A DNA stretch of 36,158 nt. It comes from Gemmatimonadota bacterium (GTDB taxonomy: Bacteria; Gemmatimonadota; Gemmatimonadetes; Longimicrobiales; Gaopeijiaceae). Positions 701 through 35,566 of the stretch are shown here, piece after piece. The stretch is from contig JADFNK010000020.1 of assembly GCA_022563405.1 (NCBI GenBank), positions 1-36,158 of the forward strand, read 5' to 3'. A program made the translations under genes and the position numbers. Within the stretch, counting starts at the first letter, position 1, and every line of letters begins with the position of its first letter. The notes beneath the pieces are model-generated. The model did not search any database, was not told where the DNA came from, and saw only the letters and a list, made by a program, of their open reading frames with translations.

Positions 701-3270
701 CGCTCGGTCCCCTCGGATAGGGGAATCACGATCGCGTCGGCGGGCACCGGGGCGCGGGCCACGAGCGCTGCCCCGGCCGGCGTGCCCACCGGGTGGTTCG
801 GATTGGCCAGAACCCACGAACGAAAGTCGCCGAGGTCGTATGTGCCATCGGCGTCGCCCTGGAGGTCGAGGAAGGTTTCGAGCGGAACATTCGTCGTACC
901 AACACCCATAAACGGCTCCGCCATGAGCTGAAGCCCTGCGTCCGGCGGGCCTACCGTGAGGTCGACGTCGACGGCACCCGTCAGGCCAATGGCATCGGTG
1001 GCCTGAACGTTCATCACGAAGTCACCCATGACCACCGGCGCTCCTCTCAAAGCCTGCGCGCTCCCACCTACGAAAAACAGGCCCGTGGGCAGGCCACTCG
1101 TAACCCACAGCAGGGGCGGGTTGGCATTCGAGACCGTGAATCGAATATCCACGTTGGATGCGGCACCCACGTCCAACTGCATCCCGTCGTCCGACGATAC
1201 GAGGTAGGTGAGATCGAAGCGGGCGGTGGCCGCACTCGGAGTGGTGACCGTCACGATGGCGGGATTGAGCTGGCCCGCCAACGCCCCTGTCCAGTCCCTG
1301 AACGCCACCCCCGTATTGGGCTGCACCAAGACACTCACGCTCGTTGCCTCCCGGATCCACCCGGACTCGGAATCCGGATTGAGAACCACCACACCGGGCA
1401 CCACCCCCGGCACCGGACTCTCGAGCGTGATATCGAAACTCACCTCCGAATTTCCGTAACTCGCCGTGAGCGTCGAATCGACGATCCCCGTCGTCCAGCT
1501 CCGGACACGCGGCTGACCGTCGCTCCACGCCAGGAAACCGTCACGGAACCCGGGGGCGCTTTCGGCGCCGCCGCCGGCCTCGAGCGTATGCCCCTGGAAA
1601 GGCGCCGACGTAAAGACGAGGGACGTCACGGCAGAAGCCACGCTGTCCACCGTGAAGACACTCCCGGACGCGCCGAGACCGGCGGACTGGAGCGTCACGT
1701 CCTGGTAGCGCGTGAGCGTCCGAAACTCCATCCGGTCGCCCACCTGTCGGATGTCCAACAGGGTGACACCGGCAGCCGTGTTCACCGGGATGCCGCCCAG
1801 TCCGTTCAGGCCATTATAGGTGAAGGCGGACGGCACCGTCCCGGCGTTGAACGCGGTCATACCAGTGGCTCCGGGGAACGGATCTCCGTCATCACCCCGC
1901 TCACCCGGCTGAGCCAAATCGTTGTTGCCGTCCGCCTGCCGGAGCCATACACCCATGCGGGACGCCAAGCTATTCACCTGGTTGCCGGCCCACGAGGCGT
2001 TGACCCTCTCGGTGTCGATCTGCCAAACGAAGAGCCCAGGCGCCGGAAGGCTCGCGTCGAAACCGAGGCGTTGCCGGTTCTCCACCAGGTAGTAGTCGCC
2101 GCTCCCGTCGCCGGCGTCGATCCTGATGACGTCATTGGTGGTCTCCACCGGATCGAGGGTGAGCACACCGAGATCGGCGTCCGGCACCAGCGTCGTGACG
2201 TTGGTCCAACCCAGCACATCCTTACTCCAGGCCGTCATATGGCACGGCATCTCCGCTCCCTGCCCATCGCAGCCCCAGGGTCCCGTGCCCATCAATCCCC
2301 AACGCCCCACACCCCCATGACTCGCGCCGACGGCGTACAGGTCCGGAAGTCCGAACCCGTGGCCGAGCTCGTGTGCGAAGACCCCGATCTCGTTGATCTC
2401 CGAAGGATCACACGAAAGAACCGGCAGGATCGTGAAGTCATCGACGACGATGTTTTCCACGCGCCCGGTGGAAGGCGTCGATGTCTCGAAGACCTGTCCC
2501 GCCGAGAAGAGGAGCTGCCAGAAGTGAGACCACACCACACCGGGGCCGCTTCCGCCGCACTCGGCGCCCGACGTGGGATGCATGACGGCTAAGAGGTCCA
2601 CGAAGCCGTCGTCGTCACCGGAGTTGGGCATGCCGTCGGGTCCGTCGTTGTCGTATCGACCCCAATCGACGCCTCCGGCGTCCGCGTCCGTGAGGAGCTC
2701 GATGATAAATTCACCCACGTCATCGCTGGGGCTCAGACCGTTGCTGTTTCCGGCGACGTCGTCCGCACTGAGGCTCGCCTGGAACCAGTCCCGCGTGTCG
2801 CCGAGGAGCGTGACCAGGCCGCCCGAAAGCTCCGTGTAGAACTCGGTGATGGTCCCCGATCGGCTGTTCGGGCCGCCGAAGAACTCCCGCTGAACGACGG
2901 CCCGTGTGAGACTCTCGACCGAGCCGTTCCCGACGTCAGCGCTGGGAATCGAGGGTGTGTCCGAGTAGCGACCGAGGAGTAGGGGAATCTCGAAGGTGCC
3001 GGCCACCCTCCCCCCCCGTGGGCCCAAGACCGTGAGCGCTCTCAGCGCGGGGAAGTCGGGGTCCCCCGTAGCGGGACCCAGCCCCAGCCGGGCTCTCCAA
3101 CCCCTGGCCGGACGGTACGCCCCGGGATTGCGGCCAATCTCCTCGAAATACGCTGCGGGGGGAGTCGTGCCATAGTGCTCCGCGAGCAACTCGACATCCT
3201 GGGCACCGAGCGCGCTGGGCACGAACCCGACCGTCACCGCGAACGCTGCCATGGTTCGCGTAGCCATCAT
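697..3270 (-). CDS. Secreted M6-family metalloprotease with C-terminal dockerin-like motif
   Basis: This protein of about 857 residues has a signal peptide ending near ALGAQD. The zinc site HELGHGFGLPDLY lies at about 300-312: HExxH, then the GLPDLY extension typical of immune inhibitor A-like M6 peptidases. It is followed by GRWGLMGTG, a probable Met-turn. An Asp/Gly-rich stretch near 205-225 may bind calcium. The C-terminal third is beta-rich, with an Ig-like or putative-Ig segment. Close to the end (about 805-820) is GDADGTYDLGDFRSWV, which resembles half a dockerin calcium motif. The start chosen is the ATG with GAGG six bases upstream; a TTG four codons earlier has no comparable site. 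It is likely exported to degrade extracellular protein. The downstream lipoprotein gene overlaps its stop. Confidence 0.88.
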   Translation of the reverse strand: MMATRTMAAFAVTVGFVPSALGAQDVELLAEHYGTTPPAAYFEEIGRNPGAYRPARGWRARLGLGPATGDPDFPALRALTVLGPRGGRVAGTFEIPLLLGRYSDTPSIPSADVGNGSVESLTRAVVQREFFGGPNSRSGTITEFYTELSGGLVTLLGDTRDWFQASLSADDVAGNSNGLSPSDDVGEFIIELLTDADAGGVDWGRYDNDGPDGMPNSGDDDGFVDLLAVMHPTSGAECGGSGPGVVWSHFWQLLFSAGQVFETSTPSTGRVENIVVDDFTILPVLSCDPSEINEIGVFAHELGHGFGLPDLYAVGASHGGVGRWGLMGTGPWGCDGQGAEMPCHMTAWSKDVLGWTNVTTLVPDADLGVLTLDPVETTNDVIRIDAGDGSGDYYLVENRQRLGFDASLPAPGLFVWQIDTERVNASWAGNQVNSLASRMGVWLRQADGNNDLAQPGERGDDGDPFPGATGMTAFNAGTVPSAFTYNGLNGLGGIPVNTAAGVTLLDIRQVGDRMEFRTLTRYQDVTLQSAGLGASGSVFTVDSVASAVTSLVFTSAPFQGHTLEAGGGAESAPGFRDGFLAWSDGQPRVRSWTTGIVDSTLTASYGNSEVSFDITLESPVPGVVPGVVVLNPDSESGWIREATSVSVLVQPNTGVAFRDWTGALAGQLNPAIVTVTTPSAATARFDLTYLVSSDDGMQLDVGAASNVDIRFTVSNANPPLLWVTSGLPTGLFFVGGSAQALRGAPVVMGDFVMNVQATDAIGLTGAVDVDLTVGPPDAGLQLMAEPFMGVGTTNVPLETFLDLQGDADGTYDLGDFRSWVLANPNHPVGTPAGAALVARAPVPADAIVIPLSEGTER

Positions 3271-3276
3271 GATCGG

Positions 3277-3330
3277 CCTCAAAAGGCAGTCCGTCTCGCA
3301 GTCCGTCTCAAAGAGCGGTCCTTCTCAAAG
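3277..3330. repeat. Imperfect tandem repeats upstream of the protease gene
   Basis: On the minus strand this leader holds several partial copies of CTTTGAGACGGACTG: CTTTGAGAAGGACCG, CTTTGAGACGGACTG, a shortened CGAGACGGACTG and a final CTTTTGAGG. The last copy supplies the GAGG ribosome binding site of the protease gene. It looks like stepwise slippage or duplication of an SD-containing unit. Confidence 0.6.
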
Positions 3331-3333
3331 GGT

Positions 3334-3375
3334 GGATCGCCTGCACCTCCCCAAATATTTACCTAAAGGCGATCC
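3334..3375. repeat. Inverted repeat between the HD hydrolase and protease genes
   Basis: GGATCGCCT at 3334-3342 is perfectly complementary to AGGCGATCC at 3367-3375, with 24 bases between the arms. The right arm overlaps the last codons of the HD-domain gene. The loop contains the AT-rich run AAATATTT. It could form a 9-bp hairpin in the mRNA between the two genes, acting as an attenuator or mRNA end. There is no T-tract, so it is not called a terminator. Confidence 0.4.
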
Positions 3376-3941
3376 TCCGCTCGAACTCCCAAAACGCCGG
3401 CTATGTTCCGCATCCCCTCGATCACGTTTTGTATGTGCTCGCTACGTTCGATTCCCAAGAGCTCGACACCGCGCGTGACATCGTCCCGGTTGACCCCCGC
3501 CGCAAAGGACTTGTCTTTCAATTTCTTGGTGACCGACTTGGGTTTGAGGTCGTCGATCCCGTTGGGTCTCACGAGACAGCACGCATAAACCAACCCCGAA
3601 AGTTCGTCGCAAGCGAAGAGGACTCGATCGAGCAGAGAATCCGGGTCTACGCCCGTCCGCTCGGGTGCGTGGGATTTGATGGCTTGGAGAATCGCGTCGG
3701 GGTAGCCGCGATCCTCCAGCTCGGCGAGCCCCCGACGCGGGTGCTCGTCCGGATATTTCTCCCAGTCGAGGTCGTGGAGAAGTCCGGCCGTGCCCCAGAG
3801 GTCTTCATCCTCGCCGTGGATTCGGGCGTAGTACCGACAAGAAGCCTCCACGGCCAGCATGTGTTTTCTCAGACCTTCGTTCTCGACCCAGCTCTCGAGA
3901 AGAGCCAGAGCCGAGGCTCGGTCGGGGATCCCTGCGCTCAT
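3363..3941 (-). CDS. HD-domain phosphohydrolase
   Basis: A 192-residue cytosolic protein of the HD superfamily. His27 (RKHMLAVE), the HD pair at 56-57 (GLLHDLDWEK) and a conserved HP at about 67 form the expected metal site. Single-domain HD proteins of this size usually act on nucleotides or other phosphate esters, but the substrate cannot be read from the sequence. The start is the ATG with GGAG five bases upstream; the longer TTG start adds only six residues and lacks such a site. The gene precedes the protease gene on the same strand, 92 bases away, without obvious functional link. Confidence 0.8.
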   Translation of the reverse strand: MSAGIPDRASALALLESWVENEGLRKHMLAVEASCRYYARIHGEDEDLWGTAGLLHDLDWEKYPDEHPRRGLAELEDRGYPDAILQAIKSHAPERTGVDPDSLLDRVLFACDELSGLVYACCLVRPNGIDDLKPKSVTKKLKDKSFAAGVNRDDVTRGVELLGIERSEHIQNVIEGMRNIAGVLGVRAEDRL

Positions 3942-16157: not shown

Positions 16158-16177
16158 GGCCTGGACCTCACGGCCTA
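16150..16177. repeat. 14-base tandem duplication at the dctQ start
   Basis: GACCTCACGGCCT(G/A) occurs twice in tandem (16150-16163 and 16164-16177). On the minus strand the upstream copy turns the duplicated GTGAGG into the Shine-Dalgarno sequence of the second copy's GTG start. Confidence 0.65.
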
Positions 16178-17194
16178 AACGGGTGCGAAGCTGTCACCCA
16201 GCTGCCGTCGGATGGCCTTGCCGATCTCGCGCAGCGTTTCCACGCCGTGCACGTCATGCGGAAGAAGGTGCAGGTAAATCCGCTGGAGCCCGGAGAAAGT
16301 CTCGTCGATCTCCTTCCTGTACCCGTCCTCCTGAAGCCGGCGCTTCCGGAGGAAATCACCGTCGGCGTCGGGAGGAAGCAACCGGTTCACGATCATCCCC
16401 GCCACCGGCACGTTGAACTTCTTCAGCAGGTCGAGCGTCTTCTCGGTCTCGAGAATCGGTAGCCGCTCCGCGGTGAGCACGAGCAGGAACGCCGTAACAG
16501 CCGGGTCGGTCAGGAGTTCCCGCGTCCGATGGAATTTGCGGCGCCGGGTCAGCAGAATATCCCGGATTCGACCGTCGCGGCTGTCGTCCGGCTCCTCCTT
16601 CGACCCACCGATCATCCCGAACTCGTCCTCCCTCGAGTGATCGCGGCCGAACACCTTGAGCAGCTCTCCCAGTTTTCGTGACCGATCCTGATGGCCGAGC
16701 ATTCCGTCGCTCCAGGCTCCCAGCACCTCGGGCAAGGAGAGGAGGCGGATGGTGTGGCCGGAAGGGGCCGTATCGAAAATCAGCAAATCGAAGCGGCTCC
16801 TCGCCTCCGCCATCAAATCGGCCATACGCTCGAGCAGCGCTGCCTCCATCGTGCCCGGGGAATGGCGAGCGAGCTCGAGCTGCCGGTCGACCTCCTTGTA
16901 CATCTTGGGGGCGACCAGAGATTTCATGCTCATCTTGACCGTCGCGATGTGGCTCTCGGCTACGGCCTCCGGGTCGATCTCCAGACCCGAAAGGTTGGGG
17001 CCAAGGGAAGTCTCCTCGTTTCCGATCCGTGTATCGAAAACGTCGCCGAGCGAGTGCGCGGGGTCCGTCGAGACGAGCAGCGTGGTGCGGCCCGACTCGG
17101 CCGCCATCAGCCCGAGGGCACCGGCCGTGGTGGTCTTCCCGACACCACCCTTCCCACCCACGAAGATGATGCGCCTGTCGAAGAGCTTGTCCAC
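16175..17194 (-). CDS. ArsA/Get3-family ATPase
   Basis: A 339-residue P-loop ATPase. The deviant Walker A is GGKGGVGKTT (13-22) with the signature Lys; switch I is TDPAHSLGDVF (43-53) and the Walker B/switch II region is FDTAPSGHT (140-148). It has one ATPase domain, as in Get3 and single-domain bacterial ArsA homologues. No arsenite-binding cysteine cluster is apparent and no arsB or arsR lies nearby, so an arsenite pump role is unlikely. It follows the small Cys-Cys-ending gene and cstA, suggesting a chaperone or assembly job for that transporter. The start is GTG with AGGAG 12 bases upstream, a long spacing. Confidence 0.9.
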   Translation of the reverse strand: MDKLFDRRIIFVGGKGGVGKTTTAGALGLMAAESGRTTLLVSTDPAHSLGDVFDTRIGNEETSLGPNLSGLEIDPEAVAESHIATVKMSMKSLVAPKMYKEVDRQLELARHSPGTMEAALLERMADLMAEARSRFDLLIFDTAPSGHTIRLLSLPEVLGAWSDGMLGHQDRSRKLGELLKVFGRDHSREDEFGMIGGSKEEPDDSRDGRIRDILLTRRRKFHRTRELLTDPAVTAFLLVLTAERLPILETEKTLDLLKKFNVPVAGMIVNRLLPPDADGDFLRKRRLQEDGYRKEIDETFSGLQRIYLHLLPHDVHGVETLREIGKAIRRQLGDSFAPV

Positions 17195-24150: not shown

Positions 24151-24690
24151 ATGCGTATCGTCGCCGGAAAACACGCGGGTCGGCACCTGACCTCCCCCGC
24201 CAAGCGGATTCGACCCACCGCGGAGAACATCAGAGACCGCTGGCTCGGACGTCTGAAGGACGACCTCGACGGCGCGCGGGTGTTGGATCTCTTCGCGGGC
24301 TCGGGAGCCCTCGGGCTGGAGGCGCTGTCGCGAGGTGCCGCCTCGGCGGACTTTGTGGAAAACGGTGCGGAGGCGCTCCACTCGCTCAAGGCCAACGTAG
24401 CCGCACTCCGGGAAAAGAAGCGCACCCGCATTTTCAAACGGGACGCCATCGTCTTCGCCGAGGCACTGGATGAACACAGCTACGACATCGCTTTTGTGGA
24501 CGCACCCTACGGATCGAAGAAGCTGGACCGTATCGTCAGCGCCTGGGCCGCTTGTCACTTCGCCCGGATCCTCGGTGTGGAGCACGCGCGGGACCACGTT
24601 CTTCCGAACGGGCTCCGAGGCCGTACACGACTCCGCGGTGAGACAGGCGTGACGATCTTCCGCGCCTCCATCGTGGATGGGCTCCGATGA
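24151..24690 (+). CDS. rsmD: RsmD-like 16S rRNA (guanine966-N2)-methyltransferase
   Basis: A 179-residue SAM-dependent methyltransferase. The start MRIVAGKHAGRHLTSP with RPTAENIRDRW is the RsmD opening. Motif I is LDLFAGSGALGLEALSRGA. The catalytic motif normally DPPY is DAPYG here, an unusual second residue. It methylates G966 of 16S rRNA in small-subunit assembly. The stop overlaps the next ATG (ATGA at 24687-24690). A TATCAT box lies five bases before the ATG, so it may also have its own leaderless promoter. Confidence 0.88.
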   Translation: MRIVAGKHAGRHLTSPAKRIRPTAENIRDRWLGRLKDDLDGARVLDLFAGSGALGLEALSRGAASADFVENGAEALHSLKANVAALREKKRTRIFKRDAIVFAEALDEHSYDIAFVDAPYGSKKLDRIVSAWAACHFARILGVEHARDHVLPNGLRGRTRLRGETGVTIFRASIVDGLR

Positions 24691-25547
24691 CCATAGTCGA
24701 TCAGTTCGAGAGCGTATTCAGGTCGGCGGCGCGCACCGTCTTCCAGGCAGAGCCGGTCGAAATCGAGTCCGTCCTGGTGATCAGTGACGGGGACGGATCC
24801 GCCGCGGAGGAGTTCGCCGCGAGATCCCGCTCGTTCCTCGAGATCCTCGACCAGCGCGAGAACCTTCGCTGGACAACGGTATCGGGCAGTGAATACGGCA
24901 CGGTTCCAGACCTCCTCGACCGGGTGGAAACCGAACGCCCCGGTCTCATCTGTACACATCGCCACCTCCACTCGGAGAGCTGGAGGTGGCCGTATACTCT
25001 GGGCGAATACTTGGACGTTCTGACTCAGGCAACGACCACGCCCGTGCTGGTTATTCCACACCCGGAGCGGCCCGAGTTCCAGCAACTGGCCGGCCGTCGC
25101 CCGCGGTCGGTCATGGCGATGACCGATCACCTCACTGGGGACCACCGATTGGTGAACTATGCCGCCCACGTGACCCACCCCGGAGGACGCCTCCTGCTCG
25201 GTCATGTCGAGGACGACGTGATCTTCGAGCGCTACATGGAGGCCATCTCCAAAATCTCCACCATCAACACGGACGTGGCCCGCAAAGAGATCAAGGCCCG
25301 GCTGCTCAAGGATCCGGAGGACTACGTCGACTCCTGCCGGGAGGGGCTGGCCCGCGTTTGGCCGGAGCTTACGGTCGAGGCGATGGTCACGTCCGGACAC
25401 CACATTCGGGCCTACCGGCATCTCGTCGAGGAGCACGAAGTCGATCTGCTGGTGATGAACACGAAGGACGAGGACCAACTCGCCATGCACGGACTGGCGT
25501 ACTCGCTGGCGATCGAGCTGCGAGCGATCCCCCTCCTCTTGCTGTGA
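24687..25547 (+). CDS. Tandem universal stress protein-like protein
   Basis: A 286-residue cytosolic protein with two USP-like halves. The first runs from VESVLVISDG-type sequence to TTPVLVIPHP (about 27-128). The second runs from RSVMAMTDHLTGDHRLVNYA to DLLVMNTKDEDQ and AIELRAIPLLLL. The Gly-rich ATP-binding loop of classical UspA is not seen, so nucleotide binding is doubtful. It overlaps rsmD (ATGA) and the following transporter gene (GTGA), so it is made together with the transporter and may regulate it, as USP domains do for other antiporters. That role is inference. Confidence 0.65.
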   Translation: MTIVDQFESVFRSAARTVFQAEPVEIESVLVISDGDGSAAEEFAARSRSFLEILDQRENLRWTTVSGSEYGTVPDLLDRVETERPGLICTHRHLHSESWRWPYTLGEYLDVLTQATTTPVLVIPHPERPEFQQLAGRRPRSVMAMTDHLTGDHRLVNYAAHVTHPGGRLLLGHVEDDVIFERYMEAISKISTINTDVARKEIKARLLKDPEDYVDSCREGLARVWPELTVEAMVTSGHHIRAYRHLVEEHEVDLLVMNTKDEDQLAMHGLAYSLAIELRAIPLLLL

Positions 25548-26974
25548 CGTACACCTTGCTCGCAGCACCGGCCCTGCAGGACGCAGCCCAAGTCCCGGTT
25601 CATGAAGTCTCGCTCGGGGTGACCCTTCTCTTCGCGGCCTTACTCGTGGGCATGATCCTGTGTTTGGCGTTCGAAGAGAAGATCCACGCACAGAAATCTC
25701 TGATCGTCGGCCTCTTCGCGATGGTCGCTCTGCTCGCCGGGGCCGTACTCCTTCCCCTGCCGTATGGGCCCTATCTGATCGGTGGGCAGGAAGTCTCAAT
25801 GCCGGTCTACATTCCGGCCATCGACTGGGGTGTCATTGCTATCATCTTAGGCGCGAGCCTTTTCGTGGACGTCACCTCACGTTCAGGGCTGTTCACCTGG
25901 ATCGCAATCTGGCTCACCAAAGCCTCTCGAGGCGACCCGAGAAAGCTGCTCTGGTACTACGGCCTCATGACCGTCGCCTTTTCAGCCGTGCTGAACAACG
26001 TCACGGCGATGATCATCGTGGGGTCGCTGTCGGCCGTCTCGTTGGGCAAACTCGGGCGGTCCGACAAGCTGCTCGGTTTCCTCTTGGTGGAAGGACTCCT
26101 CACCAACGTGGGCGGGCTCCTCACGCTCATCAGTTCGGTGCCCAACATCATTGTCGGGACCGCGGCCGGCATCAGCTTCATGGCGTTCTTTCTCAAAGCC
26201 GCCCCCTTCGTGTTCGTCGTCACGATCGTCACGCTGCTAATGGGGGCACGGATCTTCGAGATCCGGGGGCTCGCCACCCCCGAAGAGATCGAGGAAGCGG
26301 CTCGCCTCGTGGAGGGCTTCGACGAAAGAGATGGCATCGAGAGTCAAGGGTTCTTCTGGTTCGGTGCGGTGATGCTCGTGCTCTTCATCGTGGCGATCGC
26401 AACGACGTCCGTGACTCCCTACATAGGCGATCTCGGGATGGGTTTCGTCGCACTCGCGTTCGCCGCCGTCATGCTCATCCGGTTCAAACACGAGGTCGAC
26501 CAGTTCTACCGAAACATCGACTGGGATCTCCTGGCGTTTTTCGCCGCCCTCTTCGTGGTCATCTCGGTGATGGAGCACGCGCAAGTTCTTGCGCTCATCG
26601 GTCGTGCCGTCGAGGCTCTGATCGCCCTGGGCCCACGCGCCGGAACAGCGGCCGTTCTTCTGTCCTCGGCGGCGTTCAGTTCGGTAACCGACAACATCCC
26701 GCTGGCGGCGATGCTGGCCAAGATCATCGCAGGTATCCCCATGCCCGGTGGCGGCGTCCTCCCGCCAGGAGATCCGCTATGGTGGGCCGTGATCTTCGGG
26801 GCGAACCTGGGCGGCAACCTGACCCCGATCGGGTCGGCCTCGACGCTGGTGGCAGTCACCATCATGCGTAAACACAACGTACCTCTCTCGTTCGTCGCCT
26901 TCGTGCGCAAGGCGTTTCCCTTCGCGGCCCTTCACCTCGCCCTCGCGGTCGGATATGTGCTCATCGGGACGTAA
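25544..26974 (+). CDS. ArsB/NhaD-type (ion transporter superfamily) permease
   Basis: A membrane protein of 476 residues with about 11-12 helices. The N-terminal half has AFSAVLNNVTAMIIVGSLSA and TNVGGLLTLISSVPNIIVG; the C-terminal half has SSVTDNIPLAAMLAKIIAG and GANLGGNLTPIGSASTLVAV. These paired Asn/Thr/Pro signatures define the ArsB/NhaD/citrate-permease superfamily. Na+/H+ exchange or anion export are the usual jobs, and the substrate cannot be decided. The start is a GTG overlapping the previous TGA (GTGA); longer open reading upstream is only a shadow of the USP gene. Confidence 0.88.
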   Translation: MTYTLLAAPALQDAAQVPVHEVSLGVTLLFAALLVGMILCLAFEEKIHAQKSLIVGLFAMVALLAGAVLLPLPYGPYLIGGQEVSMPVYIPAIDWGVIAIILGASLFVDVTSRSGLFTWIAIWLTKASRGDPRKLLWYYGLMTVAFSAVLNNVTAMIIVGSLSAVSLGKLGRSDKLLGFLLVEGLLTNVGGLLTLISSVPNIIVGTAAGISFMAFFLKAAPFVFVVTIVTLLMGARIFEIRGLATPEEIEEAARLVEGFDERDGIESQGFFWFGAVMLVLFIVAIATTSVTPYIGDLGMGFVALAFAAVMLIRFKHEVDQFYRNIDWDLLAFFAALFVVISVMEHAQVLALIGRAVEALIALGPRAGTAAVLLSSAAFSSVTDNIPLAAMLAKIIAGIPMPGGGVLPPGDPLWWAVIFGANLGGNLTPIGSASTLVAVTIMRKHNVPLSFVAFVRKAFPFAALHLALAVGYVLIGT

Positions 26975-27124: not shown

Positions 27125-27637
27125 ATGGGGACAGTTCTGAAGGATAAATGGCAACAGCTGCGCCAATTCATGGCGCGATACCGTTGCCAGCGTGCGCTGG
27201 ACCCAAAGGGGTTCACCATTCTGGAACTGCTTGTTGTCACCATGATCATCGGTACGCTCTCGACCATGGTCGCACCCTCGCTCCAAAGGGCACGCGAGCA
27301 GGCTCTAGTCGGGGTGGCGATCGCGGAGATCAGAATCATCTCATCGGAGTTGGAGATCTACATCGTGATCGAGTTCGAGCCACCGGTGAGCCTGGCGGCG
27401 ATCGATCGGGCGACCCTGCTCGATCCGTGGGGTAATCCTTACATGTACGTGAAGCTCACGAATGGCAACGGTCAGGCGCGGAAGAACAAGTTCCAGGTCC
27501 CACTCAACGACGACTACGACCTGGGCAGCGCCGGTCCAGACGGTCTGAGCAAGAATCCGCTCACCGCGCTGGATAGCAAGGACGACATCCTCCGTGCCTG
27601 GAACGGAGCCTTTATCGGCCGGGCCTCGGATCTATAA
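27125..27637 (+). CDS. GspG-like type II pseudopilin
   Basis: A 170-residue prepilin-like protein. The peptidase site is KG/FTILELLVV with cleavage after Gly29 and the conserved Glu at +5 (E34), then the hydrophobic helix MIIGTLSTMVAPSL. DPWGNPYMYV and DLGSAGPDG followed by KDDI are the calcium-loop region of major pseudopilins (GspG). The pre-sequence of 29 residues is unusually long; a start at Met16 would give 14. No other secretion or pilus gene lies here, so it is an isolated member. GAGGG precedes the first ATG. Confidence 0.85.
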   Translation: MGTVLKDKWQQLRQFMARYRCQRALDPKGFTILELLVVTMIIGTLSTMVAPSLQRAREQALVGVAIAEIRIISSELEIYIVIEFEPPVSLAAIDRATLLDPWGNPYMYVKLTNGNGQARKNKFQVPLNDDYDLGSAGPDGLSKNPLTALDSKDDILRAWNGAFIGRASDL

Positions 27638-27659
27638 CAGCCTCAACAACAGCCTCAAC
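27636..27659. repeat. 12-base perfect tandem duplication
   Basis: AACAGCCTCAAC occurs twice in direct tandem (27636-27647 and 27648-27659), beginning at the pseudopilin stop codon and filling most of the gap before the HD-GYP gene. Confidence 0.8.
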
Positions 27660-27676
27660 CGGATGAATCGGATCGA

Positions 27677-29437
27677 ATGAGATTCGACGTCGCGCACTTC
27701 AGGACCAAGCTGGGTCGGAAAATCGTCTTCCTGTTCGTCATGTGTGCGGTCCTTCCGACCGGAGCACTGTCGTTCTTCTCTTACCGGACGGTCCGGTCCG
27801 AGCTTCTCAATCAGAGCACCGAGCTGATGGATTTAGCCACGGGTGACGCTCAGATGGGGACCCTGGAAAGGCTGCAGTCCGTCGAGAGCGAGCTGATGCT
27901 CCTGGCCGCCTCCCCCAGCGTGGCACGCGCGCTCGGTGCAACGAGCGATGGCGCGAGCCGGACTCAGTCGCTGCGGCGCCTGGGTGCCCTGACGCTGGCC
28001 ACCAAGGATGCGACCATTCCGATCGTGGGCGACCTGACGGTCACGCCGGAGCTTTCAGACTTGACTCGCGCCAATCTCGACCGGGGTCAGAGCGCGTTGG
28101 TCGTGGTCCAGGGTGCGGGAAACGGCCCGCCGGAGATCCTGATGGCACGTGTTCCAGAAGGAGCGAGCGCCGACGAAGGCGTCCTCTGGGGGCGGGTCAT
28201 AGCCGACAGCCTCTGGGTTACGGCACAGGTGTATGCGGTCGGCATCACCATCAGCGAGATCAACCTACAGGACGACAAGGGATATTGCGTGCTGGACGTG
28301 GCCCAGAGACCCTTGGACTGCGCCGGGGCACTCCTGAGTTGGCTTACCTCTGGGGTTCCCGAGGACGTCCACCTCTTGGGGGAGCCCATTCACGGACCCC
28401 TCTCCTGGGCCACTGAGGAGACGGTGTTCAAGGGCCACTATCGCCGTCTGTTCTTGCCGGGTTTCAACATGGAGCCCTGGATCCTGGTTCTCGCCAGAAA
28501 CGAAGAAACCATTCTGCAACCCCTGGTGGATTTCCAGAAGACGCTGGTGGGCCTCCTCGTGCTCACGTTCGGTGTCGTTCTGCTGTTGGCCGCGGTCGGC
28601 ATCAAACAGAGCATGGAGCCACTGGCCAAGCTGAGCGAGGGTACCCGCCGGCTCGCTGCGCAGGACTTCAGCGCGCGCGTGCACATTTCCAGTGGAGACG
28701 AGTTCGAGGAGTTGGCCGGATCTTTCAACGACATGGCCGAAAAGGTCGGAACTCTGGTCAGCGAGTTGAAGGATCTCAACTGGAGCACGATCACCACACT
28801 CGCCCGCACCATCGATGCGAAATCCCCCTGGACCGCGGGCCACTCGGAGCGGGTGTCCCAGATGTCGGTGGCGATCGCACGTGTCATGGGGCTGGACGAC
28901 GTCGAGCTCGAGCGGCTGTATCGCGGCGGCCTCCTACACGACATCGGCAAGATCGGCGTCCCCGCCACGATCATCGACAAGAAGGGGCGACTCACCGACG
29001 AGGAAATGGCCGTGATGCGGAGTCACGTAACCGTCGGCGCCCGTATTCTCGAACCGCTCACTGCCCTCCAAGACGTGTTGCCGATCGTGCTCTACCACCA
29101 TGAACGCTGGGACGGGAAAGGCTACGAGGCCGGATTGGCCGGCAACGACATTCCCAGGTTGGCCCGTATCCTGTGCGTCGCGGACACCTACGACGCGATT
29201 CGCTCCGACCGTCCTTACCGTGCCGGAAGAAGCCCGGACGAGACACTCGAAGAGATCGCCTTGTGCGCGGGAAGCCAGTTCGATCAGGAGATCGTTCAGG
29301 CGTTCGTCGAGTACATGGCGTCGGACGAAGGTGAGCTCGCGTCCATGGGGAGGTTCACGGCGCCCTTCGGCGTGCCCGCCGAAGCGCGTATAAAGTCGTC
29401 GCGTACACTCGGCGACGTCGAGAAGGTGGGCGTGTGA
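27677..29437 (+). CDS. Membrane sensor with HAMP and HD-GYP domains
   Basis: A 586-residue protein: membrane helix (about 15-33), periplasmic sensor region (to about 285), second helix (about 290-312), HAMP domain (MEPLAKLSEGTRRLAAQDFS) and a C-terminal HD-GYP domain. The HD-GYP metal motifs are HDIGKIGVP (421-429) and HHERWDGKGY (474-483), with a GYE where GYP is usual, then ADTYDAIRSDRPYR. HD-GYP proteins degrade cyclic di-GMP. It follows the pseudopilin gene after 39 bases, fitting a surface or motility role for the signal. Its stop overlaps the next GTG start. Confidence 0.93.
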   Translation: MRFDVAHFRTKLGRKIVFLFVMCAVLPTGALSFFSYRTVRSELLNQSTELMDLATGDAQMGTLERLQSVESELMLLAASPSVARALGATSDGASRTQSLRRLGALTLATKDATIPIVGDLTVTPELSDLTRANLDRGQSALVVVQGAGNGPPEILMARVPEGASADEGVLWGRVIADSLWVTAQVYAVGITISEINLQDDKGYCVLDVAQRPLDCAGALLSWLTSGVPEDVHLLGEPIHGPLSWATEETVFKGHYRRLFLPGFNMEPWILVLARNEETILQPLVDFQKTLVGLLVLTFGVVLLLAAVGIKQSMEPLAKLSEGTRRLAAQDFSARVHISSGDEFEELAGSFNDMAEKVGTLVSELKDLNWSTITTLARTIDAKSPWTAGHSERVSQMSVAIARVMGLDDVELERLYRGGLLHDIGKIGVPATIIDKKGRLTDEEMAVMRSHVTVGARILEPLTALQDVLPIVLYHHERWDGKGYEAGLAGNDIPRLARILCVADTYDAIRSDRPYRAGRSPDETLEEIALCAGSQFDQEIVQAFVEYMASDEGELASMGRFTAPFGVPAEARIKSSRTLGDVEKVGV

Positions 29438-29868
29438 AGGGAGGCAGATGGTGGCTATCGTTGAGTGCCTTCCTCCTGGTCCTTGCTTGTGGGCCCGAAA
29501 GGTACGACACGCCTCTAGAGAACATCCAAGGGCGGTGGACCACGACCGACGACCCCATGTACGCGGATCGCGCGTTCGAGATCGATGACGATTTCCTCTA
29601 TCTACTGACGGGGGGAGATTCGTTCACGGTTCACAAGATCCACGAGGTGCTGATCGCCGAGGATGACCTTCCGAAGTACACGATCGAGTATCGAGGAGAC
29701 GAGGGCGCGTTGTTCTCGTTCAATTTTTACCTGTCGCAAGAAGAGGGCGGCACCATCCTGTTCCCGCACGAGATGCACATGAAGTGGCACAGAGACCCCG
29801 ATGCCTCGGTTCCGTGGGGTATCCTTCTGGATTCAGAGAGAGACGCCACGCCCGCCTCCGATCCATAG
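29434..29868 (+). CDS. Putative lipoprotein coupled to the HD-GYP gene
   Basis: A 144-residue protein starting at GTG and overlapping the HD-GYP stop (GTGTGA). The signal peptide ends in LLVLACGPE, a lipobox with Cys at about 19. The mature part (NIQGRWTTTDDPMYADRAFE, FEIDDDFLYLLTGG, FHEMHMKW-like end) looks like one beta-rich domain of the GxW type. Function unknown; the coupling suggests it modulates the sensor or shares its signal. Confidence 0.72.
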   Translation: MKGGRWWLSLSAFLLVLACGPERYDTPLENIQGRWTTTDDPMYADRAFEIDDDFLYLLTGGDSFTVHKIHEVLIAEDDLPKYTIEYRGDEGALFSFNFYLSQEEGGTILFPHEMHMKWHRDPDASVPWGILLDSERDATPASDP

Positions 29869-29958
29869 GAGCTCCGGGGCCGGGCTTCGCTTGCGACCCG
29901 TGCGCCATCTGCGCAGGTTCACCATCATGTAGAATCCCGGCACAATCATGGAGAGTCG

Positions 29959-30747
29959 ATGACAGCGCCCAGCGTACCGGTCGCACCGAATGTGGACCGA
30001 GAGGTCCTTCGTGAAGCGATACAGGAGGAGTACGAGGCGGTCGCGCGTGAGCCTGAGCGCGGTTTTCACTTTCATACGGGCCGCCCGCTCGCACAGATCC
30101 TGGGTTATCGGTCGGAGTGGCTCGACGGATTATCCGAGGGCTCCATCGAATCGTTCGCGGGCACGGGTAATCCGTTCAGCCTGGGGACGTTGGCCGCCGG
30201 AGAGCGGGTCGTGGACATCGGTTGTGGAGCCGGCATCGATTCGCTCATCGCCGCCGGCATGGTGGGCCCGGAGGGGGCGGTGATCGGCATCGACATGACA
30301 CCGTCCATGCTGGAAAAGGCACAGGCCGGAGTGGGAGACCTGGACCACGTGGAGTTCCGGCTCGGGTTCGGCGAGGAGCTTCCCGTGCCGGACGGATGGG
30401 CGGACGTTATCATCTCGAACGGCGTCGTGAACCTCATGCCGGACAAACAAGAGGTCTTCACCGAGATGGCCAGAGTGCTCAAGCCAGGAGGGCGCATTCA
30501 GATCGGTGATATCCTCGTCGACCGACCGGTGCCCGAAAACGCGAAAGAAAAGATCGAACTCTGGACCGGCTGAATCGCAGGCGCTCTGCTGGAAGCAGAG
30601 CTCAGTGCCACGGTCGTGGCTGCGGGATTCACGGACTTCGAGATCACCTGGCGGGCACCCGTATTCGAGGGAGCGCCCCAGCAGTCGAGCGCGGCGCAGT
30701 TCGGAACGAACGGGATCAACTACCGAGCGACGAAGGCGGGCAACTGA
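29959..30747 (+). CDS. ArsM-like SAM methyltransferase, probable selenoprotein
   Basis: A class I SAM methyltransferase of the ArsM/UbiE-like group. It has HFHTGRPLAQILGYRSEWL, FAGTGNPFSLG, motif I VVDIGCGAGIDS and GRIQIGDILVDRPVPENA. At codon 205 there is an in-frame TGA (30571-30573) in the context ELWTG-TGA-IAGALLEAEL. ArsM-type relatives have a conserved catalytic Cys here (W-x-x-C-I/V-x-G-A-L). After the TGA the frame stays open for 57 codons with family-like sequence (VVAAGFTDFEITWRAPVFEG). It stops at 30745-30747, directly against the ATG of the next gene. A hairpin suited to a bacterial SECIS follows the TGA. The full product is 262 residues with selenocysteine at 205; the only Cys is in motif I. 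GGAG lies five bases before the ATG. Substrate (arsenite or other soft nucleophile) is inferred from family. The alternative is a nonsense mutation giving a 204-residue fragment. Confidence 0.8.
30583..30601 (+). promoter_or_regulatory. Bacterial SECIS-like hairpin
   Basis: GCTCTGC-TGGAA-GCAGAGC forms a perfect 7-bp stem with a five-base loop. The stem starts nine bases after the TGA and the loop begins 16 bases after it. The loop has G at its second and third positions. These fit the known rules for bacterial selenocysteine insertion elements: a loop about 16-37 bases after UGA, with a G among the first two loop bases. It lies within the coding sequence, as bacterial SECIS elements do. Confidence 0.72.
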
Positions 30748-32010
30748 ATGGATAGACGGTCCATGCTCAAGACCGGGACGATGGGCTTCCTGGGACTGGG
30801 GCTAGGCGGGGGGCTCGGTGGGTGTGCGACGACCGGGTCAGGTCGGGAAAGCTCGCTCGTGCTCGCGCCGGTTCGTGTCTCTTGGGACCGCATCATTCGG
30901 ACGACCGTGGGCCTGCGTCCATACCGGCCCTCGGGTTTCGTACTTCGAGCCGAGAGGCTCGACGGCAAAACCGTTATCCACAACTACGGCCACGGGGGCT
31001 CCGGGATGTCTCTCTCCTGGGGAACGGGGTTCATGGCCGCTGAAATGGCTACGGAGCAGGAGGACCGCAGGGCCGCCGTGATCGGCTGCGGCGTCGTGGG
31101 ACTGACCACAGCGCGACAGCTTCAGCGGCGTGGCTTCGATGTCACCATCTATGCCATGGCCGTCCCGCCCGATACCACTTCGAACATGTCGCTCGCCGGC
31201 TTCACACCGACGTCCGGACTCGTAGAGACCAGTCAGCGCACGCCGGCCTGGGACGCTCAGTTCCGGCGTGCCGTGGAGATCGCGTACAAGCAGCTCCAAC
31301 TCCTGATCGGCCCGAAGTACGGGATCACATGGATGAACGGCTACTCGATGCAGTCCGCCCCCCCGGCGAACGCTTCGGTGCAGCCAGAGTCCCGGCCAAA
31401 CCCCCCGAGCGCCCCGCGCCGGCCGAGCCTGCTGCCCCAGGAGCTGCGGACCGGTAGTGTTATTCTCGGGCCCGGAGAGCATCCCTTCCCGACACCTTAT
31501 GTGAGCTACCGGCCCGCGATCCGCATCGAGCCCTCGATCTACCTCGACGCACTGGTGGAGGACGTCCTTCTTTTTGGTGGAAACATCGTCATCCGGAAGT
31601 TCGACACACCGCAGGACCTGATGTCGCTGGAGGAATCGGTCATCGTGAACTGTACGGGTCTCGGATCCTACACGCTGTTCAACGACCGAGAGTTGACGCC
31701 CCTGAAGGGCCAACTCACCGTGCTCGTTCCCCAGCCCGAGATCGACTACAACACCTTCGGCGGTCTACGCCGTATCGGCGGGTTCGGCATCCACATGCAA
31801 CCCAGAAGCGATGGGATCGTCCTGGGCGGCACTTCGGAACGAGGCGTCTGGTCGCTGGAGCCGAACGAAGAAGCCCTCAGGCGAGTGGTAGAAGGACACA
31901 TCGCACTGTTCGACGCCATGAGAGGGTCGGCTCGCCCGACTCAAATCGCGAGCGTAGGCCCACCGGACCACGTGCCGCCTGTAGAGGCCTTCTTCGGGTT
32001 GAACTCCTAA
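30748..32010 (+). CDS. FAD-dependent oxidoreductase, permuted D-amino-acid-oxidase type
   Basis: A 420-residue protein with an RR-containing export signal (MDRRSMLKTG) and a lipobox-like GGCA (Cys26). The motif order is unusual: GLRPYRPSGF (55-64) and HNYGHGGSGMSLSWG (78-92), which stand at the C-terminus of D-amino acid oxidases, come before the FAD-binding motif VIGCGVVGLTTARQL (111-125). The end of the protein (IASVGPPDHVPPVEAFF) lacks them. The Arg of GLRPYRP contacts substrate carboxylate in the classical enzymes, so oxidation of an amine or amino acid is plausible. The ATG directly follows the stop of the methyltransferase gene. A Pro/Ser/Arg-rich insert lies at about 210-235. Confidence 0.85.
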   Translation: MDRRSMLKTGTMGFLGLGLGGGLGGCATTGSGRESSLVLAPVRVSWDRIIRTTVGLRPYRPSGFVLRAERLDGKTVIHNYGHGGSGMSLSWGTGFMAAEMATEQEDRRAAVIGCGVVGLTTARQLQRRGFDVTIYAMAVPPDTTSNMSLAGFTPTSGLVETSQRTPAWDAQFRRAVEIAYKQLQLLIGPKYGITWMNGYSMQSAPPANASVQPESRPNPPSAPRRPSLLPQELRTGSVILGPGEHPFPTPYVSYRPAIRIEPSIYLDALVEDVLLFGGNIVIRKFDTPQDLMSLEESVIVNCTGLGSYTLFNDRELTPLKGQLTVLVPQPEIDYNTFGGLRRIGGFGIHMQPRSDGIVLGGTSERGVWSLEPNEEALRRVVEGHIALFDAMRGSARPTQIASVGPPDHVPPVEAFFGLNS

Positions 32011-34884: not shown

Positions 34885-35139
34885 ATGGCCAGACGACTCA
34901 AGAACGTCACGATAACGCTAGACGAAGAGACCGCGAGCTGGGCTCGAATCGAAGCGGCCCGACGGGACACTTCCGTGTCGAAGCTCCTCGGCGGGATTCT
35001 ACGGGCCGAGATGCGCCAAGAGGCCCAATACGAGGCCGCAAAGCAGGCATATCTGGCCCAAGAGCCCGGGATTCATCGTTGCCGGGATCAGCCCCTGCCC
35101 TCCCGAGAAGAGCTGCACGATCGTGACCGTCTTCGTTGA
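34885..35139 (+). CDS. vapB: Ribbon-helix-helix VapB-type antitoxin
   Basis: An 84-residue antitoxin. The N-terminal half RRLKNVTITLDEETASWARI with SVSKLLGGILRAEM is a ribbon-helix-helix DNA-binding domain. The C-terminal half is charged (QEAQYEAAKQAYLAQEPG, then LPSREELHDRDRLR) and would block the toxin. No ribosome binding site precedes the ATG; the promoter lies immediately before it. The end overlaps the toxin start by 17 bases. Confidence 0.85.
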   Translation: MARRLKNVTITLDEETASWARIEAARRDTSVSKLLGGILRAEMRQEAQYEAAKQAYLAQEPGIHRCRDQPLPSREELHDRDRLR

Positions 35140-35566
35140 CACCAACGTCCTCGTCTACGCTCGTGACCGAAGCGAGGCCGACAAGCAGCGGCGTGCCGCC
35201 GAGTGGATGGGGAGCCTGTGGGAGACGGGCCTCGGAAGGCTGAGCTACCAAGTCATCCAGGAGTACTACGTCACCCTGACGACCAAGCTCGATCCCCCTC
35301 GTTCGACCGAAGACGCACGAGAGGACGTCACGGCTCTGGGCGCCTGGAGTCCCGTAGCCATCGATCAGCGCACCATCGAGGGAGCCTGGGACGTCCAGGA
35401 TCGATACGGCTACTCGTGGTGGGACTCGCTCATCGTCGCCGCCGCCCTCCAGTCCGGATGCCGATACCTACTGACGGAAGACCTCCAGACCGACCAGGTG
35501 ATCGATACGCTGACGATCATCAGCCCGTTCGCTCGGGAGCCCGAGGAGATTCTACCGGGTCTGTGA
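35123..35566 (+). CDS. vapC: VapC-type PIN-domain ribonuclease toxin
   Basis: A 147-residue PIN-domain protein. The acidic site is complete: D6 in VFVDTNVLVY, E47 in YQVIQEYYV, D101 in SWWDSLIVAAAL and D120 in YLLTEDLQ. PIN toxins cleave tRNA or rRNA using Mg2+ or Mn2+. The start is a GTG inside the end of vapB, so toxin translation depends on antitoxin translation. All parts look intact and the pair should be functional. Confidence 0.9.
   Translation: MTVFVDTNVLVYARDRSEADKQRRAAEWMGSLWETGLGRLSYQVIQEYYVTLTTKLDPPRSTEDAREDVTALGAWSPVAIDQRTIEGAWDVQDRYGYSWWDSLIVAAALQSGCRYLLTEDLQTDQVIDTLTIISPFAREPEEILPGL

Follow-up and report, generated by a model that had tools for sequence, protein, structure and literature searches.

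A methyltransferase gene of a Gemmatimonadota bacterium very probably encodes a selenocysteine-containing ArsM-like enzyme from a clade lacking two of the three arsenic ligands

The window analysed here (the whole stretch of 36,158 nucleotides, positions 1 to 36,158 of contig JADFNK010000020.1 from Gemmatimonadota assembly GCA_022563405.1) contains a methyltransferase gene with an in-frame TGA, and it raises the question of whether this codon ends the protein or encodes selenocysteine (Sec), and what kind of substrate a Sec enzyme of this type would methylate. The frame lies on the forward strand, starts at the ATG at 29959, meets the TGA at 30571-30573 in the context ELWTG-U-IAGALL, and then runs through 57 sense codons to the stop codon TGA at 30745-30747, which directly abuts the ATG of the next gene (30748) with no gap; the sequence confirmed this arrangement as the initial annotation had described it. 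If the inner TGA is read as Sec, the coding sequence (29959-30747, forward strand, stop codon included) would give 262 residues with Sec at residue 205. Translation table 11 ends the open reading frame at this TGA after 204 aa, the point at which automatic annotation had been expected to cut the gene, so a Sec enzyme would be mistaken for a truncated methyltransferase.

To what family the product belongs was clear from several matches. Pfam analysis of the full frame gave Methyltransf_31 (97.5 bits), and the AlphaFold2 model, made from an alignment of 37 homologues, had a mean pLDDT of 95. All 13 best PDB matches of this fold model were ArsM or AS3MT chains, with TM-scores by query length of 0.63-0.70, and the best PDB matches by sequence were also ArsM and AS3MT. 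The SAM-binding motif I, VVDIGCGAG (residues 84-92, 30208-30234, forward strand), holds Cys89, and the protein has no Cys elsewhere, as had been noticed before. Judged by these matches, the related domain included, the gene product is a Rossmann-fold SAM methyltransferase of the ArsM-like group.

The position of the TGA was then the central point. Profile alignment to CmArsM placed Sec205 (30571-30573, forward strand) at Cys224, which agrees with the earlier proposal that Sec stands at the conserved ArsM Cys. Homologues were taken from related genomes and from a collection of contigs in which each species is represented by one genome, and codons were read only for matches with a locus given. 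Among 73 loci including that of the window, which are the best-scoring ones and not a random sample, the codon at this column was TGA in 42 and Cys (TGC or TGT) in 31, and Cys or Sec was invariant in the 37-row alignment; so the aligned homologues without TGA have Cys there, and their lacking it had been named as a possible refutation. For 57 of the loci the codon came from an alignment, before which L080-L085 were dropped as fragments or unrelated sequences, and for the other 16 it came from a pattern that expects Cys or TGA and that all 16 matched. L047 and L057 were kept among the 42 Sec loci though they are damaged upstream, the Cys rows include near-copies (for example L064 with L070, and L073 with L075), and L102-L121, which came from the NF041537-type search, are not among the 73. 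The family-like sequence claimed past the TGA proved to be conserved, with 66-69% identity in four full-length near relatives and 70% in L024, which ends at its contig end. Of the seven near relatives for which the contig reaches past the end of the gene, six stop 55-58 codons past Sec. A search of the phylum gave 48 of 395 genomes with a match at E 1e-45 or better and one inner TGA (its position was read only where a locus was given), and the TGA-containing gene is not rare in the phylum. By this comparison of sequences, Sec insertion appears at a single catalytic position, and TGA 30571-30573 very likely encodes selenocysteine.

Two other readings of the TGA have to be weighed against these data. 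One is that it is a real stop with a 204-residue product, or that the gene is decayed or mis-sequenced. UGA does also end this same gene, an internal part of the gene is deleted in a sister record (L081), and L047 and L057 are the damaged copies mentioned above; but the recurrence of TGA at this codon in 42 loci, a conserved C-terminus, and the hairpin covariation and sel machinery described below make this reading very improbable. The other is that UGA is read as a different amino acid such as Trp under a reassigned code. L057, a copy from a Chloroflexi MAG (2946-3722), carries two more TGA in frame upstream, of which one falls on a Trp position and the other where relatives vary (Arg, Ala or Thr). 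The one at the Trp position could be taken to favour reassignment, although both are probably the result of decay or sequence error; against it, the 31 loci without TGA all have Cys in this column and never Trp, and the genome has a tRNA-Sec with anticodon tca and SelB. We consider reassignment still less probable than a real stop or decay.

The sequence after the TGA contains a bSECIS-like hairpin with the letters GCTCTGC-TGGAA-GCAGAGC (30583-30601, forward strand), beginning nine bases past the TGA. It is present as the 7-bp hairpin with a TGGAA loop reported initially, except that the fold closes one extra U-A pair, which gives an 8-bp stem (30583-30590 with 30594-30601) and a GGA apical loop (30591-30593) at 17 nt from the TGA. 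The bSECIS model outlined in PMC13188914 has G in the first two loop positions, a spacing of 16-37 nt, a loop of 3-9 nt and a stem of 4-16 bp, and the window hairpin agrees with all of these. In a single sequence, the hairpin is weak evidence: a stem of at least 6 bp that fits the simplified bSECIS core follows 168 of the 998 TGA triplets on both strands of the window, and a fitting stem of 8 bp or more follows 37 of them. Folding of the single sequence was dropped as a proof, since the 61-nt fold gave an uninformative z of -0.65 and 50 of 200 shuffles folded at least as well. An Rfam scan of 29900-30800 gave no match.

Comparison across homologues was more informative. A stem of at least 6 bp with an early loop G was found after the TGA in 38 of the 42 TGA loci (window included) and in none of the 31 Cys loci, and for this reason the hairpin is taken to be beyond chance. 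The spacing was 16-17 nt in 37 of the 38 fitting loci, and L093 fits by way of another hairpin, located at 23 nt; no perfect 6-bp stem follows the TGA in L047, L053, L056 and L094. Over the 42 sequences, 89.0% of the cells were paired, compared with 43.5-58.3% when the partner was slid. Changes on both sides were seen in 23 hairpin cells versus 9.8 in shuffles, and none of 500 shuffles reached the covariation score. The number of pairs changed on both sides (3, with 37 of 500 shuffles as high) and the number of further pair types (7, with 453 of 500 as high) were unexceptional, and the outermost pair was unpaired in 22 of the 42 Sec sequences. The principal example of covariation, a C-G to G-C swap, for the most part tracks the two Sec subclades, which means that many of the double-changed cells come from few events. 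Codon usage gave a further line of evidence: between the window gene and five near relatives, synonymous codons in the hairpin were identical in 74 of 95 comparisons, versus 42-57% in four neighbouring stretches. Taken together, these comparisons support a conserved bSECIS-like element.

A further reading concerns the terminal TGA at 30745-30747, which could itself encode Sec and so join the methyltransferase to the next gene, a FAD-dependent oxidoreductase (30748-32010, forward strand; DAO, PF01266, 102.9 bits) whose N-terminus, in frame with the methyltransferase, looks lipoprotein-like by eye. The two reading frames are indeed one frame with zero gap, and a 6-bp hairpin 31 nt past the terminal TGA fits the loose core, but such a hairpin is the one that follows 168 of 998 TGA triplets in the window. 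The stops of the six near relatives that end 55-58 codons past Sec are three TAG and three TGA (the seventh, L047, extends to 72 codons), and no such partner was recognised by eye in the flanks of relatives. A fusion protein is thus highly unlikely, and the single-Sec protein of 262 residues is the form considered below.

Decoding of UGA as Sec needs a cellular machinery, and the initial annotation had proposed to look for selA, selB, selC and selD, with their absence as a reason to give up the idea. All of them were found in the window's own genome, a draft assembly of 157 contigs that is 90% complete: SelA (513.2 bits), SelB (327.9 bits, with the match spanning only profile positions 2-345 of 581), tRNA-Sec (69.4 bits, anticodon tca) and SelD (369.1 bits). 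The SelD gene itself has an inner TGA in the motif GAGU, which we take to be the SelD active-site motif (locus L020, about 1500-2500 of contig C60 in genome G000, LAHGAGUASK); SelD is therefore a probable second Sec gene of the same genome. To see how the machinery follows the gene, 146 genomes were searched twice, with a match to the TGA gene counted at E 1e-30 or better. SelA was matched in 22 of the 22 genomes counted with the TGA gene (the window's own included) versus 77 among the 124 remaining genomes (Fisher p = 1e-4, a value that is only a guide because relatives are not independent samples). In this count, G090 is among the 22 with SelA only as a fragment below the cut-off, G014 was included without its codon being read, and G115, whose partial match contains two TGA and for which SelA was not listed, was excluded; including it would give 22 of 23. 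A SelA match was found in only 3 of the 8 genomes with a Cys sister gene.

In the proposed sequence of events, the hairpin at 30583-30601 together with SelA, SelB, SelD and tRNA-Sec of the genome would direct Sec into the protein at UGA 30571-30573. On the TGA/Cys column, the conserved hairpin and the sel genes, the gene is very probably a selenoprotein gene, as had been suggested at the start, and we hold with high confidence that this UGA is decoded as Sec, through the hairpin and the genome's own machinery, in a 262-residue ArsM-like methyltransferase belonging to a clade with a single chalcogen ligand.

The second part of the question concerns the active site. CmArsM has four conserved Cys, namely 44, 72, 174 and 224 (PMC5552862), and its arsenic ligands are Cys72, Cys174 and Cys224; the C174A and C224A mutants were described as inactive on iAs and MMA, C72A as inactive only on iAs, and dimethylarsenite (DMA) as held by one Cys (PMC3877260). 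In the profile alignment to CmArsM (chain coordinates), the window protein has Thr69 (30163-30165, forward strand) at Cys72, Gly155 (30421-30423, forward strand) at Cys174 and Sec205 at Cys224. The numbering was checked with 5eg5, which is titled C72A and shows Ala there, and Cys174 and Cys44 were placed by counting; as an oddity, the chain sequence filed for 5jx7 has Cys at that place although the title gives C224A. Cys at the Cys72 position was seen in 0 of 42 Sec rows (L047 was unreadable there) and 0 of 8 Cys sisters versus 22 of 23 canonical ArsM rows, and at the Cys174 position in 0 of 42, 0 of 8 and 23 of 23, respectively. The assumption of an arsenic site that is of ArsM type except for Sec in place of one Cys was not supported, because the other two ligands are absent. 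In 7 of the 42 Sec rows, the stretch that starts 170 residues ahead of Sec and runs to the protein end holds no further Cys; L024 and L041, among these seven, are incomplete, and in the complete ones Sec, as read from the sequences, has no Cys partner in that stretch.

We then placed these sequences in a quickly built tree with 72 rows, for which the Sec column was masked and L047 omitted because its upstream part is unreadable (SH-aLRT support only, midpoint root). One clade of 49 rows with an SH-aLRT of 99 contained 41 rows with Sec and 8 with Cys, and the 23 canonical ArsM rows, all with Cys, fell outside it. The clade consists of 15 Sec rows in the window's group, 26 Sec rows in a second group and 8 rows in the Cys group, and the branching order of the three is unsettled. 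Its conserved stretches are (F/Y)HFxxGR, SFAGxGxP, and SNG or TNG. The first of these is FHFHTGR in the window protein (residues 36-42, 30064-30084, forward strand) and is aligned at the Cys44 region of CmArsM; L091 has Thr in place of its Arg. The His at residue 37 is present in 41 of the 42 Sec loci (the remaining row is unreadable there) and in all 8 Cys sisters, versus 4 of the 23 canonical ArsM rows. The records of near relatives are labelled Gemmatimonadota, Deltaproteobacteria/Myxococcota, Acidobacteriota and Chloroflexota (metagenome bins). Such a clade offers a natural contrast, with Sec and Cys versions of one site and the other arsenic ligands gone in both, and the contrast would test both the role of a selenolate in a methyltransferase and the need for a three-Cys arsenic site.

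Whether Sec forms of ArsM had been catalogued before was left open initially, and they have been. A 2008 count in ocean metagenomes has a table row of 8 sequences for Sec arsenite methyltransferases (PMC2398784), a 2022 review lists them, in the part available, without a motif (PMC9312934), and a 2026 review places Sec ArsM under "Experimentally verified" with the motif UxxG, cites Fomenko 2007 in its entry for the Sec arsenite methyltransferase, and also lists three fusion families with two or three Sec (PMC13188914). In the open-licence papers searched, we found no description of the clade-wide loss of two ligands. The four best NCBIfam matches of the window protein are all to models of ArsM type, of which three are named as selenoproteins, and no cut-off was reached. 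The best was NF041537 (ArsM_AhpD_UU, 232.8 bits against a cut-off of 510), followed by NF008823 (arsenite methyltransferase, 213.7 against 263), NF041536 (ArsM_DUF2284_UU, 211.2 against 575) and NF047649 (MTase_UXPK_star, 203.8 against 460). With the three fusion families, the match covers their methyltransferase part from near the N-terminus, but the window protein ends at residue 262 without an AhpD, DUF2284 or UXPK-star module or a second Sec, and it scores under half of their cut-offs. Bona fide NF041537 proteins, sought in order to read their Cys72 and Cys174 positions, were found over the cut-off in 0 of 19 genomes searched. The Sec arsenite methyltransferase of NF008823 / PRK11873 has in common with the window protein an ArsM-like fold, a single Sec and UxxG (here UIAG), but the window protein is below that cut-off and has lost two of the three As ligands. 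Five other clade members tested were also below the cut-off of NF008823, whereas two canonical homologues passed it with 309.5 and 286.8 bits. The window gene is thus a stand-alone, single-Sec member that lies below the cut-offs of the NCBIfam models.

Is the enzyme still an arsenite methyltransferase? In that case, Sec205 with His residues and external thiols would hold As(III), and SAM would methylate it. With CmArsM (PDB 4FR0, 4FS8, 6CX6), CrArsM and human AS3MT, the window protein has the fold, the SAM motifs and the Cys224 position in common, and ArsM and AS3MT are its best PDB matches in both sequence and fold. The ArsM of Thermus thermophilus (TtArsM) is reported to methylate As(III) using a single Cys, with two His also implicated (PMC8649762); a protein that has lost two Cys may therefore still act on arsenite. 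TtArsM differs, however, in having Cys and not Sec, and to judge from its place in the protein, its conserved Cys77 is probably another position than the residue kept here. The window also contains an ArsA-type anion-transporting ATPase about 13 kb away (16175-17194, reverse strand, PF02374, 236.7 bits), and, about 3 kb away, a CitMHS/ArsB-like transporter in the open reading frame 24986-26974 (forward strand), where the CitMHS match and a weaker one to ArsB lie in the later part, from about residue 245 of 662. The true start of the latter is probably later, because its first part overlaps the open reading frame 24687-25547 in another frame.

Several findings speak against this reading. Two of the three ligands are gone in the clade rows read, and the loss of one of them, C174A, inactivated CmArsM (PMC3877260). 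Acr3, the only arsenite exporter family searched genome-wide, gave no match in the genome. The score for NF008823 is below the cut-off in the window protein as in the five other clade members, with canonical homologues passing. No partner gene common to the flanks of eight near relatives was recognised by eye, so the gene context gives no substrate. The functional ArsM reading of the initial annotation is supported in part: Sec does stand at the Cys224 position, but the lost ligands, the lack of an acr3 match and the 213.7 bits speak against the rest. An enzyme that methylates arsenite itself is unlikely, at perhaps a quarter of our belief, and the sequence comparison favours a methyltransferase with a single selenolate over a canonical arsenite methyltransferase.

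For such a single-selenolate enzyme, the selenolate, alone or with His37, would hold one soft electrophilic centre beside the methyl group of SAM for methylation. We propose this mechanism tentatively, with somewhat less than even confidence. Because dimethylarsenite is bound by one Cys (PMC3877260), an arsenical from a late methylation step, or a metalloid or chalcogen compound of another kind, would fit better; a species that requires a single chalcogen ligand, which may be dimethylarsenite-like, another metalloid or an alkyl-chalcogen, suits the site better than inorganic arsenite. The wider proposal, to which we give about an even chance, is that a single-chalcogen clade arose from ArsM, dropped two ligands, fixed (F/Y)HFxxGR, and came to use a substrate other than inorganic arsenite by a selenolate mechanism unlike the thiol cascade. 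If this is true, a Sec/Cys single-chalcogen clade, perhaps aided by His, methylates a dimethylated or organo-metalloid or alkyl-chalcogen compound.

Two further observations were made in and around the window. The record L081 (Gemmatimonadetes NP105, about 2842-3248) has 85-87% DNA identity to the window over about 5.5 kb, lacks window positions 27410-29885 except for about 40 bases, and has the internal deletion in its methyltransferase gene, with window positions 30087-30672 missing. These gaps may be either loss or misassembly, and an NF041537-type search of its genome (G438) yielded nothing with an E value of 1e-30 or better. Near the end of the window, a small gene pair on the forward strand (34885-35566) has by eye the look of a VapBC-type antitoxin and PIN-domain toxin.
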